Shown here: in pieces, positions 20 to 21,028 of the stretch
Layout of the letters: each line of letters starts with the position of its first letter
Numbering within the stretch: position 1 is the first letter of the stretch
Origin: Blastocatellia bacterium
GTDB lineage: Bacteria > Acidobacteriota > Blastocatellia > HR10 > J050
Assembly: GCA_025054955.1 (NCBI GenBank)
Contig: JANWZE010000013.1
Coordinates: forward strand, 1 to 39,043
Reading direction: 5' to 3'
DNA: 39,043 nt
Notes under the pieces: model-generated
Databases searched by the model: none
What the model was told of the DNA's origin: nothing
The model's input: only the letters and a program-made list of their open reading frames with translations
Program-made: the position numbers and the translations under genes

Positions 20-1411
20 TCATCGTTCATCGTTGAGGGTTATCTCAGATTGCTCATTGAGCAATGACCAGGCATCAGCAGCGCGGACTGCCTCTGGTAA
101 TCGGCGTTTGGTGGTCAACAAAATGCCGGAGGATTGCTCTCGACGGAGGTTCCCGTGCGTTGCTCGCAGCACCGCCACCACATCCAGCAGAGCGCTTCCG
201 TCGTAATAGCCGTCTTCAAAACTCACCAGCACGCTGGCGGGGTGTTCGACATGGTTGGTGAGTCCTTCCCAGAGGCGGCGCACGGCGTCCGGATAGATGT
301 GCGCATGCGTGGCTTCAAACAGATCAGCATCTGCAATGAATCCATCAGCGCGGACGCGTCCCTGCCGTTGCAGTTCGGCGATGATCGGATTCAGTTGAAG
401 CGGATCGCCCACATCCGTGACATAGCTGTAGTAGCCGTCCCGGTGCACGATACGCGCCCGCCCGGAGCGGGCGACCAGATAGACGGTGTCGTGTTGTTTG
501 TAAGCGGCCAGGTCAACGCCCGGCGTGCGCGCGGCCGCCACGGCCACATGCTGCTCGTAGGCTTCGCGTGTATAAAGGACGGCGCAACCAACCAGTCCGT
601 AGCGCGGTTGAACGACGCTGCGCTCATCTTTCATCCCTGAATCGAGTCGAAACCCCAGGCGTTCCAATTCAGGTTTCAGATTGACTTTGCGGTAGCGGGT
701 GAAATGATTGCCGTGATCGGAAAAGAGCGTGATGTCTACCTGCCCGTTCGCCTTCCGGATGAGCTGCTGGCAGGTTTTATCCAGCGTAGCAAGGAAATTG
801 CGCAGGAGCCACTCACCACCAATGTGCGCCAGTGGATCAGTGGAGCCAAGATAGGCAATGAACGTAGAAGCGGTTGACTTTTCAAACTTCCGGCGAATTT
901 TCATCAGTGTCAGCCGCGCATCGAGCCAGGGGCTTACCGGCGGCACTGCATACTCCAGCGTCATGGTGACACCCGATGGATGGTAATCGAATAGCTCGCG
1001 AAATGTGCCTTCAATGAACGTCTTTCGCCGGAAACGCGCGAAGAAGCCGCCGCGCATCCGGTCACTTGTGGGGTCATAGTAGTAGTCCTCGTACCCTCGC
1101 GCTTCGGGTGCGCCCAGCGGTTGGAGAATTTCAATCACAGCAGGATTCGTCAGCGTCGGAAACGGAGCGATCAACCGCGCCGGCGGTTGGAAAACGCGAA
1201 ACTGCCCTTGGTCATACATCTTCTGGAGCGTCGAGAATCCAACACCATCCAAGCAGATGATGAGATGGCGCCGGACAGATGCGCCTTCACTCCTTAAGGA
1301 ACGAGCAGATTGGTCATGGCACGTGGCTGATGAATTCCACCCGATCATCGGATGGGCCAGTATAACCAATGTGAAACGTTTCAGCATCCGTGTGAGTGCT
1401 CTTTTCATCAT
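20..1411 (-). CDS. Alkaline-phosphatase-superfamily phosphodiesterase/nucleotide pyrophosphatase-like protein
   Basis: 463 residues with the metal-site signature of type I phosphodiesterases. LDGVG has metal-ligand Asp55. FPTLTNP at 84-90 holds the likely Thr/Ser nucleophile. DPLAH gives Asp192 and His196, and FSDHGNH gives Asp232, His233 and His236. Enzymes of this superfamily hydrolyse phosphate mono- or diesters or sulfates with two metal ions; the substrate cannot be read from sequence. The first 22 residues (basic, then hydrophobic) could be a weak signal peptide, but no clear cleavage site follows, so the compartment is open. Start codons at 1411, 1408 and 1387 are all possible and none has a convincing ribosome site. 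It is divergent from the biotin-carrier-like gene across 485 bases. Confidence 0.8.
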   Translation of the reverse strand: MMKRALTRMLKRFTLVILAHPMIGWNSSATCHDQSARSLRSEGASVRRHLIICLDGVGFSTLQKMYDQGQFRVFQPPARLIAPFPTLTNPAVIEILQPLGAPEARGYEDYYYDPTSDRMRGGFFARFRRKTFIEGTFRELFDYHPSGVTMTLEYAVPPVSPWLDARLTLMKIRRKFEKSTASTFIAYLGSTDPLAHIGGEWLLRNFLATLDKTCQQLIRKANGQVDITLFSDHGNHFTRYRKVNLKPELERLGFRLDSGMKDERSVVQPRYGLVGCAVLYTREAYEQHVAVAAARTPGVDLAAYKQHDTVYLVARSGRARIVHRDGYYSYVTDVGDPLQLNPIIAELQRQGRVRADGFIADADLFEATHAHIYPDAVRRLWEGLTNHVEHPASVLVSFEDGYYDGSALLDVVAVLRATHGNLRREQSSGILLTTKRRLPEAVRAADAWSLLNEQSEITLNDER

Positions 1412-1896: not shown

Positions 1897-2514
1897 ATGC
1901 ACCCAACGCTTCCAGTGCTGATTGATCGAGGAAACGCTCAAGAAGGAATTTTTCTCGTTCGAGCGCCGGCCATTGGGCTTTATCGGCTTGCGCCGCGCGT
2001 CGGAGCAATGCTCAGTCCCGGCAGTGTTGTGGGGCGGCTGCGTGTATTGCACCGGGATTACGAGTTGCTGTTACCGCCAGATGTTTGGGGGCAGGTCGGT
2101 CGGGTGTTAGTTGAGGATAAGATCACGCCGGTTGAATATGGGCAAGTGTTGTTTGAGTTGCGCCAGCGTGGGGTAGAAGCCACGCTGGCAGAGGGCGACC
2201 TGGCTGCTATCGAGCGCGTCCCGGCTGGTGAAGGCGGCATAGCAATTGTCTCGCCAACCGATGGCGTCTTTTACCTGAAGCCCCATCCAACCGCTGAGCC
2301 GTATGTCCGCCTCAATGACCGCGTCAGCGAAGGACAGGTGTTAGGCTTAGTCGAAGTGATGAAATGTTTCAACCCGATTCAATATGGCGGGCCAGACTTG
2401 CCCGAGCAAGCAGAAGTGGTAGAAATTTGCGTTGCCGACGGCGCCGAGATTAAATCCGGTCAAGTATTGTTCCGTGTGCGGTCAGCAACTCAGGAAACAG
2501 GCCAGACAACCTGA
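1897..2514 (+). CDS. Biotin/lipoyl carrier protein, two tandem domains (AccB-like)
   Basis: 205 residues. The C-terminal half (about 117-195) is a biotinyl/lipoyl hammerhead domain. LVEVMKC carries the presumed biotinylated lysine Lys156, in the place of the usual E-A-M-K-M, and a typical second half ends in SGQVLFRV. The N-terminal half (about 17-88) has the same rhythm: APAIG, then a strand ending VLHRDYELLLPP, then VEYGQVLFEL. It has no Met-Lys motif, so it looks like a degenerate copy of the fold. The family carries CO2 on biotin in acetyl-CoA or related carboxylases, but no biotin carboxylase or carboxyltransferase gene is present here. Its stop shares one base with the start of the next gene, so the two are probably translationally coupled. 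The ribosome site is weak (GGAA about 8 bases upstream). Confidence 0.75.
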   Translation: MHPTLPVLIDRGNAQEGIFLVRAPAIGLYRLAPRVGAMLSPGSVVGRLRVLHRDYELLLPPDVWGQVGRVLVEDKITPVEYGQVLFELRQRGVEATLAEGDLAAIERVPAGEGGIAIVSPTDGVFYLKPHPTAEPYVRLNDRVSEGQVLGLVEVMKCFNPIQYGGPDLPEQAEVVEICVADGAEIKSGQVLFRVRSATQETGQTT

Positions 2515-3203
2515 TGGAACCAACACGCAAGCCCCGTGTCAAGATTTGTTGCATTAGCAGTGTAGAGGAAGCCTGGATGGCCATCCGGCATGGCGCGTCA
2601 GCGTTGGGCTTGGTCTCTGAGATGCCGAGCGGTCCTGGCGTCATTGCTGATGAATTGATTGCCGAGATTGCAGCGATTGTGCCGCCGGGGGTGGCTTCCT
2701 TTCTGCTGACGAGCCGGCAGGACGCGGCAGCAATCATTGAGCAGCAACGGCGGCTGGGCGTCAACGCAATTCAAATCTGTGATCGGCTTCACTCAGGTTC
2801 CTACCAAGAGATTCGCGCAGCATTGCCCGGCATCCGTCTGATTCAAGTGATTCATGTGACAGGCCAGGAGTCATGGGCTGAAGCAGTGGCTGTTGCCCCG
2901 CATGTGGACGCATTGTTGCTGGATTCAGGAAATCCATCGTTGCCGGTCAAAGAGCTGGGCGGGACCGGACGGCTGCATGATTGGCGCATCAGCCAGCGCA
3001 TTAGGGAATCGGTGAGCGTGCCGGTCTTTCTGGCCGGCGGTTTGACTCCTGAAAACGTGACTGACGCCATCCGCTGCGTCGGCCCATTTGGCCTGGATGT
3101 ATGTAGCGGCGTTCGCACTGACGGAAAGCTCGATCCCGTCAAGCTGGGTCGGTTTTTTGCTCGCGTTGCTGCCTACGCAGAGAGCGGGTCCGATGGACTG
3201 TAA
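2514..3203 (+). CDS. TrpF-like (phosphoribosylanthranilate isomerase superfamily) protein
   Basis: 229 residues in a TIM-barrel pattern matching TrpF. It starts with VKICC (Cys12 at the TrpF catalytic Cys position) and has LLLDS with Asp137 at the catalytic Asp position. It also has GGTG at 149-152, then LAGGLTPENV and a final GLDVCSGVR phosphate-binding turn. TrpF isomerises phosphoribosylanthranilate in tryptophan synthesis. Three signatures differ: the usual KICG is KICC; the S-P-R loop, whose Arg binds the anthranilate carboxylate, is S-G-P-G; and the usual Q-L-H-G is Q-I-C-D. No other trp gene is nearby, and the gene is fused by one base to a biotin-carrier-like gene. It may therefore be a distinct subfamily with another substrate. 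Fold is confident, reaction is not. Confidence 0.72.
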   Translation: MEPTRKPRVKICCISSVEEAWMAIRHGASALGLVSEMPSGPGVIADELIAEIAAIVPPGVASFLLTSRQDAAAIIEQQRRLGVNAIQICDRLHSGSYQEIRAALPGIRLIQVIHVTGQESWAEAVAVAPHVDALLLDSGNPSLPVKELGGTGRLHDWRISQRIRESVSVPVFLAGGLTPENVTDAIRCVGPFGLDVCSGVRTDGKLDPVKLGRFFARVAAYAESGSDGL

Positions 3204-19094: not shown

Positions 19095-20246
19095 TTAAGC
19101 CCTCACCGCTTGCAAGAAGATGGGGAGTTCGTTGACCGATGGAAGAATGACGTCCGCCATCGCCTCAACAAACATCATGCGTTTGGCTTTTGGATCATGG
19201 CTGCTGTCGGTGACGCCGGCGAACAAGTAGCGTGGGTCATGTTGATTGGCGCGTCGGGTCATGATGAAATCTTCGGCAGAATCACCGACATACAAAGCTC
19301 GTTTGAATGGGTTCATCGCTTGCGCCGCCGCCAGCAATGAATAAGGCGCCGGTTTGGCGCGTTCAGCGCGGAGCGTTTGAACGTCGGCATGAGTGTTCAG
19401 CTCATCGTCTTCCAGCAGAATTCGCGCGCGAGGATTGAAGGCGTCAAACATTGCTCCCAACGTGTAGCGCGTCGCCACTGTGCCGCGACCGGAGGCGATG
19501 CCCAGGTTTGGCGTGCCCACTATCTTGGTTAACTGTTTCAGTGTCGCGTCGGTAATGATAGGTCTTTCGTTGTCAATGGCGCCACGACCGGTGTAATACT
19601 GCGCCGGCTGCCGATGAACGCGCTGAAACAAATCAGGCCCATAGAAAATTTCGTCGAAGATGGTGGCCAGCAAGCTGTGTGCGCCTTGTTCCGGGTACTG
19701 CACAAGTTGTTTGAATCGGTGGAGTGCTTGCAGCCTGTAGCGCGGTTGCCGACCCTGCATGAGAATGCTTTCTAATGGTCCAAGGCCTGTGGTATTGGCC
19801 TGCGCGACGAAGCGGTAGAGGCCGTCATGCAGGCGCTCGGCATCAGCGCTCAGACGCTGACGCGCATGGCGTCCCTGAAGGAATTCTTCAAGGTACGGCC
19901 GCGGCAAACACGAAACCAAGTAAAGCGCGATGACATACGTTGAATTCCAATCGTTATTGAATCCGCCGCTTTTGCGCAGGGTCTCAACGATGGAGGGCGT
20001 AACGACTCGCGCCGGTATGGTGACGCCAACCAGCGCATCGAGAAGGAATCGAACCGTTCGGATGATCGTCGCCGTGTAGGATCGCCGTGTATCAATCAAC
20101 ACACCGTCACAATCGAAAATGATCGCCTGTATGTCGCGCAGTTGGGTTACCACAGCCGGTTTGATATAGACTGTTCGACCCATGAAGCGGCGGCGATGAT
20201 AAAGCGGCGATGAGTGCTCAGTGAGTTTGTCGTTGCGCGCGGTCAT
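19095..20246 (-). CDS. HAD-superfamily hydrolase with a large cap insertion
   Basis: 383 residues. All four HAD motifs are present: FDCDGVLID with Asp45/Asp47, Ser252 in SGRG, Lys298 in AKPAP, and VGDSAED (320-326). It should be a phosphatase or related phosphotransferase using the aspartyl-phosphate mechanism. The region between motif I and II spans about 200 residues, far longer than usual C1 caps, and resembles no cap I know, so substrate is unknown. Start chosen at 20246 because its ATG overlaps the birA stop by 4 bases (ATGA), implying coupled translation; another ATG (20183) lacks a ribosome site. Its place between birA and xthA gives no clear pathway. Confidence 0.78.
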   Translation of the reverse strand: MTARNDKLTEHSSPLYHRRRFMGRTVYIKPAVVTQLRDIQAIIFDCDGVLIDTRRSYTATIIRTVRFLLDALVGVTIPARVVTPSIVETLRKSGGFNNDWNSTYVIALYLVSCLPRPYLEEFLQGRHARQRLSADAERLHDGLYRFVAQANTTGLGPLESILMQGRQPRYRLQALHRFKQLVQYPEQGAHSLLATIFDEIFYGPDLFQRVHRQPAQYYTGRGAIDNERPIITDATLKQLTKIVGTPNLGIASGRGTVATRYTLGAMFDAFNPRARILLEDDELNTHADVQTLRAERAKPAPYSLLAAAQAMNPFKRALYVGDSAEDFIMTRRANQHDPRYLFAGVTDSSHDPKAKRMMFVEAMADVILPSVNELPIFLQAVRA

Positions 20247-21028
20247 CGTTCTCGAAGGTTTTGCACGTCGCCACTGAAAATTGTTTCGTGTGTGCCATCG
20301 CTCATTTCGACGATGAGCGCACCGGCTGGAGTCAGGCCGCGCGTGGTGCCGGTGATGGTGCGGCCACCGATGATGACTTGTACGGGCTTGCCGGTGGCAT
20401 AACTGGATAGCTCACTCCAACGGCAAATGATGGGAGCCGCGCCTTGCGTCAGGAACGTGTCGTACCAGGCATCCAAGGTGACGTACAACTTCTGACGAAC
20501 CTCATCCACATCAATGGCACGCCCTGTCTCCAGTTTAAGCGACGTTGCGTGAAGCGCCATGTCGGGTGGAAACGAAGCTTGATTGATGTTGACGCCAATG
20601 CCGGCAATGGCATAAAGCAGACGGTCTTCCATGACTTCCGTTTCCACCAAAATACCAGCCAGCTTGCAATCGCCAATCAGAATATCGTTGGGCCATTTGA
20701 TGTCTACCGGCAGCCGGTACTGTCCTCGCATCAATTCGGCTAGTCCCACGGCAAGCATCAGCGTCAGCACGGGCGCGTCCGCCGGAGGAATCGGCGGACG
20801 CAAAATGATCGAGTGATAGAGACCGTCATTCTTCGTCGAGACCCAGCTTCGGCCCAATCGGCCACGGCCACGCGTTTGCTCATCAGCCACCACCGTCGTT
20901 CCCTCGCTAGCGCCCACTTCCGCCAGCTCGCGCGCGATGTCGTTGGTTGAGGTCACCGACTCATACCGGTACACAACGTTGTTAAACCGTCGCAGCATGG
21001 TCGCTCGTGTGTGTGAAGGGGTATTCAT
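20243..21028 (-). CDS. birA: Biotin--[acetyl-CoA-carboxylase] ligase (no DNA-binding domain)
   Basis: 261 residues. Attaches biotin to the lysine of biotin-carrier domains through biotinyl-AMP. The signature GRGRLGR (54-60) and KWPND (111-115), then KLAGILVE and GIGVNIN, identify the ligase core; a C-terminal SH3-like domain follows (about 215-261). There is no N-terminal helix-turn-helix, so this is a group I enzyme that should not repress transcription. A plausible substrate, the biotin-carrier-like protein, is encoded elsewhere in the window. An internal Met11 could also be the start. The first codons are duplicated just upstream (see the leader ORF), and the stop overlaps the HAD gene by 4 bases. 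Confidence 0.93.
   Translation of the reverse strand: MNTPSHTRATMLRRFNNVVYRYESVTSTNDIARELAEVGASEGTTVVADEQTRGRGRLGRSWVSTKNDGLYHSIILRPPIPPADAPVLTLMLAVGLAELMRGQYRLPVDIKWPNDILIGDCKLAGILVETEVMEDRLLYAIAGIGVNINQASFPPDMALHATSLKLETGRAIDVDEVRQKLYVTLDAWYDTFLTQGAAPIICRWSELSSYATGKPVQVIIGGRTITGTTRGLTPAGALIVEMSDGTHETIFSGDVQNLRER

Follow-up and report, generated by a model that had tools for sequence, protein, structure and literature searches.

The window analysed here is a stretch of 39,043 nucleotides from a Blastocatellia bacterium (contig JANWZE010000013.1 of assembly GCA_025054955.1). It contains a gene for a biotin carboxyl carrier protein followed by a gene for a TrpF-like protein of the PRAI family, and the question raised by this locus is whether the two form one functional unit. 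The carrier gene occupies positions 1897..2514 (+) and encodes 205 amino acids, and the TrpF-like gene occupies positions 2514..3203 (+) and encodes 229 amino acids. At the junction TGATG (2512..2516, +), the stop codon (2512-2514) and the start codon (2514-2516) have one A in common, as the original prediction had described, and this one-base overlap may couple the translation of the two genes locally in the window's genome. Such gene overlaps often join related functions. We consider the start codon of the TrpF-like gene credible, since Coleofasciculus homologues have the same N-terminus, MEPT-PRxKICC. No carboxylase subunit genes adjoin the pair within the window, again in agreement with the original prediction. 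The window also encodes a 463-aa protein at 20-1411 (-), which looks phosphodiesterase/alkaline-phosphatase-like by eye and for which Pfam gave no match at E 0.001.

The biotin carrier and its probable carboxylase partners

The carrier consists of two lobes. The C-terminal biotinyl lobe (about residues 113-196, positions 2233..2484, +) matches Biotin_lipoyl with 41.4 bits against a cut-off of 22.1 (E=1.3e-10) and carries Lys156 in the motif EVMKCF (codon at 2362-2364, +), in which M155-K156 is invariant across 19 carrier sequences. The N-terminal lobe (about residues 17-92, positions 1945..2172, +) is a degenerate biotinyl-like copy with no lysine at the biotin site. When profiles of the two lobes, built from the 19 carrier sequences, were compared by hhalign, the N-lobe aligned with the C-lobe at a probability of 95% (E=1.8e-8) and proved to be a degenerate copy of it, which bears out the claim of two lobes with the biotin lysine in the second only. 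The claim is based on this profile comparison because the AlphaFold model of the carrier alone reached only pLDDT 34. A lysine-less N-terminal biotinyl-like lobe is found in all 19 sequences of the carrier subfamily, where it perhaps has a docking role toward AccC or the carboxyltransferase. With the NCBIfam BCCP models, the window carrier scored 85.8 against a cut-off of 87 (NF005457) and 64.7 against 115.2, while its orthologue in the related genome G001 scored 91 against 87. The single match to biotin protein ligase (BPL) in the genome lies in the same window at 20243-21028 (-), about 18 kb from the carrier (70.6 bits).

In two genomes of the same family as the window's genome (G001 and G002), the carrier orthologue, 57% identical over its length, immediately follows accC and the gene of a carboxyltransferase of 574-577 aa. 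The original prediction had named accC/accD genes next to the pair in close relatives as a sign of an ordinary AccB, and for the carrier this is the arrangement found in both genomes. A search of 297 genomes of the phylum yielded 16 further two-lobed carriers. The same carboxyltransferase, 65-73% identical, is encoded upstream of the carrier at all 16 loci, and AccC is encoded upstream as well at 14 of them, that is, on every contig that extends that far. Including G001 and G002, the carboxyltransferase is upstream of the full-length carrier at 18 of 18 loci and AccC at 16 of 18, the contigs of the two loci lacking AccC beginning inside the carboxyltransferase gene. The genes touch or almost touch at most loci and are about 0.3 to 3 kb apart at a few. 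Among solved structures, those of PccB, MccB and glutaconyl-CoA decarboxylase A are similar to the carboxyltransferase.

The window's own genome has the same two partner genes on another contig (C100), with the carboxyltransferase 84% and accC 78% identical to those of the sister operon, and no carrier was found near this pair. Three AccC-type biotin carboxylases are encoded in the genome (contigs C100, C108 and C11), and three carriers have a biotin motif, namely those on C108 (EAMKLM), on C11 (EAMKMQ) and on C13, which is the window (EVMKCF). The remaining biotin/lipoyl matches in the genome are lipoyl-type or secretion-adaptor sequences. Contigs C108 and C11 each hold a carboxylase together with a carrier, and the window carrier is therefore the missing third. 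Given accC and the carboxyltransferase gene on C100, an orphan carrier with a new role was rejected.

The occurrence of the orthologues in operons, the unlinked location of the partner genes and the number of carriers are all directly observed, and from them we infer that the window carrier is a subunit of a three-subunit acyl-CoA carboxylase whose gene has been displaced from the accC-carboxyltransferase pair on C100. In such a complex, formed by an AccC-type biotin carboxylase, the carboxyltransferase and the two-lobed carrier, BirA would biotinylate Lys156, the AccC encoded on C100 would carboxylate the carrier biotin, and the PccB/GcdA-like carboxyltransferase would then move CO2 to an acyl-CoA. 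The carrier shares with the BCCPs of AccC/PccB-type acyl-CoA carboxylases (TIGR00531, NF005457/PRK07051) the C-terminal biotinyl lobe with its VEVMK motif and, in its orthologues, a position downstream of accC and of a gene for a carboxyltransferase. It differs from them in the additional degenerate N-terminal biotinyl-like lobe, and its gene in the window's genome is detached from the partner genes.

A separate clade of TrpF-like proteins

The protein encoded downstream matches PRAI (PF00697) with 87.9 bits against a Pfam cut-off of 22.7 (E=9.1e-25). Its fold, predicted from an alignment of four sequences, reached pLDDT 83 and pTM 0.82, with low confidence at the loop of residues 141-152, right around GGTG, and the best structure match of the model is TrpF of Thermotoga maritima (TM 0.82/0.91). 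Compared with TrpF (1nsj, 1lbm), the protein has the same fold and keeps both catalytic residues (Cys and Asp) as well as the GG motif of the phosphate site, but Arg36 and the QLHG motif are lost, Glu184 is replaced by Arg, and there are additional residues ahead of GGTG. In the alignment, Cys12 (codon 2547..2549, +) corresponds to T. maritima Cys7 and Asp137 (codon 2922..2924, +) to Asp126. The loop MPSGPG (residues 37-42, 2622..2639, +) takes the place of the Arg36-bearing S-P-R loop of TrpF, with SGPG at the S-K/P-R site and Gly42 opposite Arg36. The residue changes in the original prediction, that is, Cys and Asp kept, SGPG in place of S-P-R and QLHG absent, were thus all recovered, and one further change had escaped it: the position of T. 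maritima Glu184 is occupied by Arg201 (codon 3114..3116, +), which is invariant in the clade described below. Cys12, Asp137 and GG175-176 are also invariant in this clade, and Ser198-Gly199 nearly so.

In a tree of PRAI sequences, 35 TrpF-like sequences fall on one side of a branch with support 100/98, against 18 other PRAI sequences. This clade (TL) is strongly conserved. In the 12 genomes that have both proteins, mean identity is 63% for the TrpF-like protein and 47% for TrpF, and the TrpF-like copies are more alike than the TrpF copies in 66 of 66 genome pairs. About 37 of 118 relatives and 20 of 297 genomes of the phylum were found to carry the TrpF-like gene, as were Coleofasciculus and one Chloroflexi MAG. 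Plasmid-borne copies were found in Acaryochloris, Sphingomonas and Sphingobium; all three are named TrpF in PLSDB, and the clade has probably been misannotated as TrpF. Two Coleofasciculus copies group with the window's protein in the tree (support 95/90), and because of this grouping we suggest that the window's gene was acquired by horizontal transfer. Both Coleofasciculus genomes have a second, stronger PRAI member as well. On our reading, the clade is derived from PRAI, evolves separately and was spread partly by horizontal transfer. The open-access literature, to which the search was limited, yielded no description of such a TrpF paralogue or clade, which is apparently a strongly conserved, undescribed relative of TrpF.

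Several other copies and relatives were observed. A Coleofasciculus copy (L041, 5532-6206) with changed motifs and a broken second copy in another genome (G114:C73:4026-4623) are decaying. A PRAI-like protein from Poribacteria (L043, 2645-3286) lacks the Cys needed for catalysis and is distant from both groups in the tree; it is perhaps another altered TrpF paralogue.

No general neighbour of the TrpF-like gene was found at the inspected loci, and a conserved operon partner was accordingly rejected. The neighbours observed vary, including dapB/dapA, LarC/FolE, MutS2, DNA polymerase I, a Mn-efflux protein, thiolase, Hydantoinase_B, DUF3352, a methyltransferase and a NUDIX protein. Some arrangements recur locally. 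In several genomes of one family (f5; L061-L063, L074, L079, L080), a lysine/diaminopimelate (DAP) cluster includes the gene, placed between dapB and dapA or close to them, and in one genus (g35; L056, L058, L072) it is flanked by a LarC-type nickel-insertion gene and a GTP cyclohydrolase I gene. The Sphingomonas and Sphingobium plasmids (L132, L133) have a common block containing an efflux operon, a DUF4403 gene and the TrpF-like gene, next to recombinase/transposase genes.

Possible functions of the TrpF-like protein

TrpF, HisA and PriA are textbook models of substrate change in barrel enzymes, and the placement of Arg is a known switch. HisA and PriA belong to the same barrel class and share the Amadori-type chemistry, but the TrpF-like protein matches neither family, and its strong sequence matches are all PRAI. 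In HisA, PriA and TrpF, Arg placement determines substrate choice, and simulations of PRA-bound TrpF indicate that a salt bridge between Arg36 of loop 3 and Glu184 shields the substrate carboxylate from negative charge (PMC9088769). Because, in the TrpF-like clade, Arg36 is lost from loop 3 and Arg replaces Glu184 opposite, the other end of the substrate would not be anthranilate. This paired change, together with the kept catalytic residues, points to an isomerase with an altered substrate end rather than a dead enzyme. The protein might still use its Cys and Asp for the acid-base isomerisation of a phosphorylated sugar derivative, in an Amadori or aldose-ketose reaction; judged from the kept residues and the predicted fold, the chances of such isomerase chemistry are about even. 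We slightly favour the reading that these proteins are a new PRAI-fold family, with Arg36 lost and Arg at the Glu184 position, that acts on a non-anthranilate sugar phosphate in an undescribed reaction and has moved horizontally between the window's phylum, cyanobacteria, Chloroflexi and sphingomonads.

A narrower form of this explanation, and no alternative to its carrier part, is that the protein serves in metabolite repair (house-cleaning), as an isomerase or tautomerase whose substrate is a damaged sugar-phosphate adduct. A single gene with no fixed neighbours, a patchy distribution, plasmid copies and strong conservation would be in keeping with such a role, but this pattern fits any accessory enzyme equally, and we consider the repair role possible though rather unlikely.

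The protein could also still be a PRA isomerase in which Arg201, where strand 8 ends, has taken over anthranilate binding from the Arg of loop 3. The kept catalytic Cys and Asp, the GG phosphate-site motif and a fold nearest to TrpF would agree with this, as would an Arg at the neighbouring Glu184 position. However, the protein, which alone was scored, does not reach any of the NCBIfam TrpF cut-offs (its best score is 120.9 bits, against 215), and at no inspected locus is the TrpF-like gene part of a trp operon. The original prediction had asked whether a real trpF exists elsewhere in the genome, and an ordinary trpF is indeed present on contig C71, within a trp gene cluster. Another PRAI member is encoded in about 40 of the 49 genomes with the TrpF-like gene, a count that is approximate since one of the second matches is weak and two are fragments. 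In the other 9 genomes the TrpF-like protein is the only PRAI member, and TrpC was not detected in 8 of them; the ninth (G103, 85% complete) has TrpC, which speaks for the PRA isomerase. The sole-PRAI genomes lacking TrpC are drafts, 78-95% complete, in which absences could partly be gaps, but gaps are unlikely to account in full for eight genomes in which both TrpF and TrpC are missing. Together these data make a tryptophan role unlikely. The separate clade, the second TrpF and the persistence of the gene where neither TrpC nor TrpF is detectable uphold the earlier view of the barrel as an altered TrpF paralogue that is probably not TrpF. A non-TrpF role is well supported by the distribution, the protein is probably not a tryptophan enzyme, and we regard a retained PRA isomerase activity as improbable.

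A role in or near lysine/diaminopimelate synthesis is more doubtful still. The position between dapB and dapA in the lysine gene cluster of several f5 genomes would favour it, but there are no dap neighbours elsewhere, the window included. Additionally, the gene is absent from most other genomes of the class, and the known lysine/DAP pathway therefore does not need it.

Gene context of the carrier and TrpF-like genes

The original prediction tied the barrel functionally to the biotin carrier and proposed to check whether the order of the two genes is conserved across genomes. The tie is not supported, and the pair was seen in no genome but the window's own. No carrier-like ORF was present in the fetched stretches of 36 other TrpF-like loci in a first survey, nor was a carrier present at 12 further loci from the phylum survey or at the 3 plasmid loci; the carrier is thus beside the TrpF-like gene at 0 of 51 other loci (48 genomic and 3 plasmid). 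Conversely, a TrpF-like gene was found at 0 of 18 carrier loci, and G001 and G002 have the carrier operon with only an ordinary TrpF and no TrpF-like gene. On these gene-context data, a coupled biotin/isomerase unit was rejected. Base composition marks neither gene as recent.

The carrier and the TrpF-like gene are probably two unrelated units, and their contact appears to be a lineage-specific accident. Against this division stands the one-base overlap at the junction, and no closer relative of the window's genome with the pair was available for comparison. Taken jointly, and with the chemistry not included, the division into two units, the identity of the carrier and the non-TrpF role of the barrel are in our judgement highly likely. 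That the two proteins work as one unit, for example with the isomerase acting on a biotin- or carrier-bound intermediate, would suit the TGATG overlap and the lack of carboxylase genes beside the pair, but it is very hard to reconcile with the absence of the pair from all other TrpF-like and carrier loci inspected, the unlinked partner subunits in the same genome and the two same-family genomes in which the carrier operon occurs but the TrpF-like gene does not.

The coupled unit is thus not supported as a functional idea, and a split operon accounts for the biotin carrier that looked like an orphan, which is a correction. The part worth following is the TrpF-like clade. A natural, widespread clade with a changed charge pair, with the catalytic residues kept and present where no tryptophan pathway is detectable, would show what direction TrpF evolution takes outside the laboratory.
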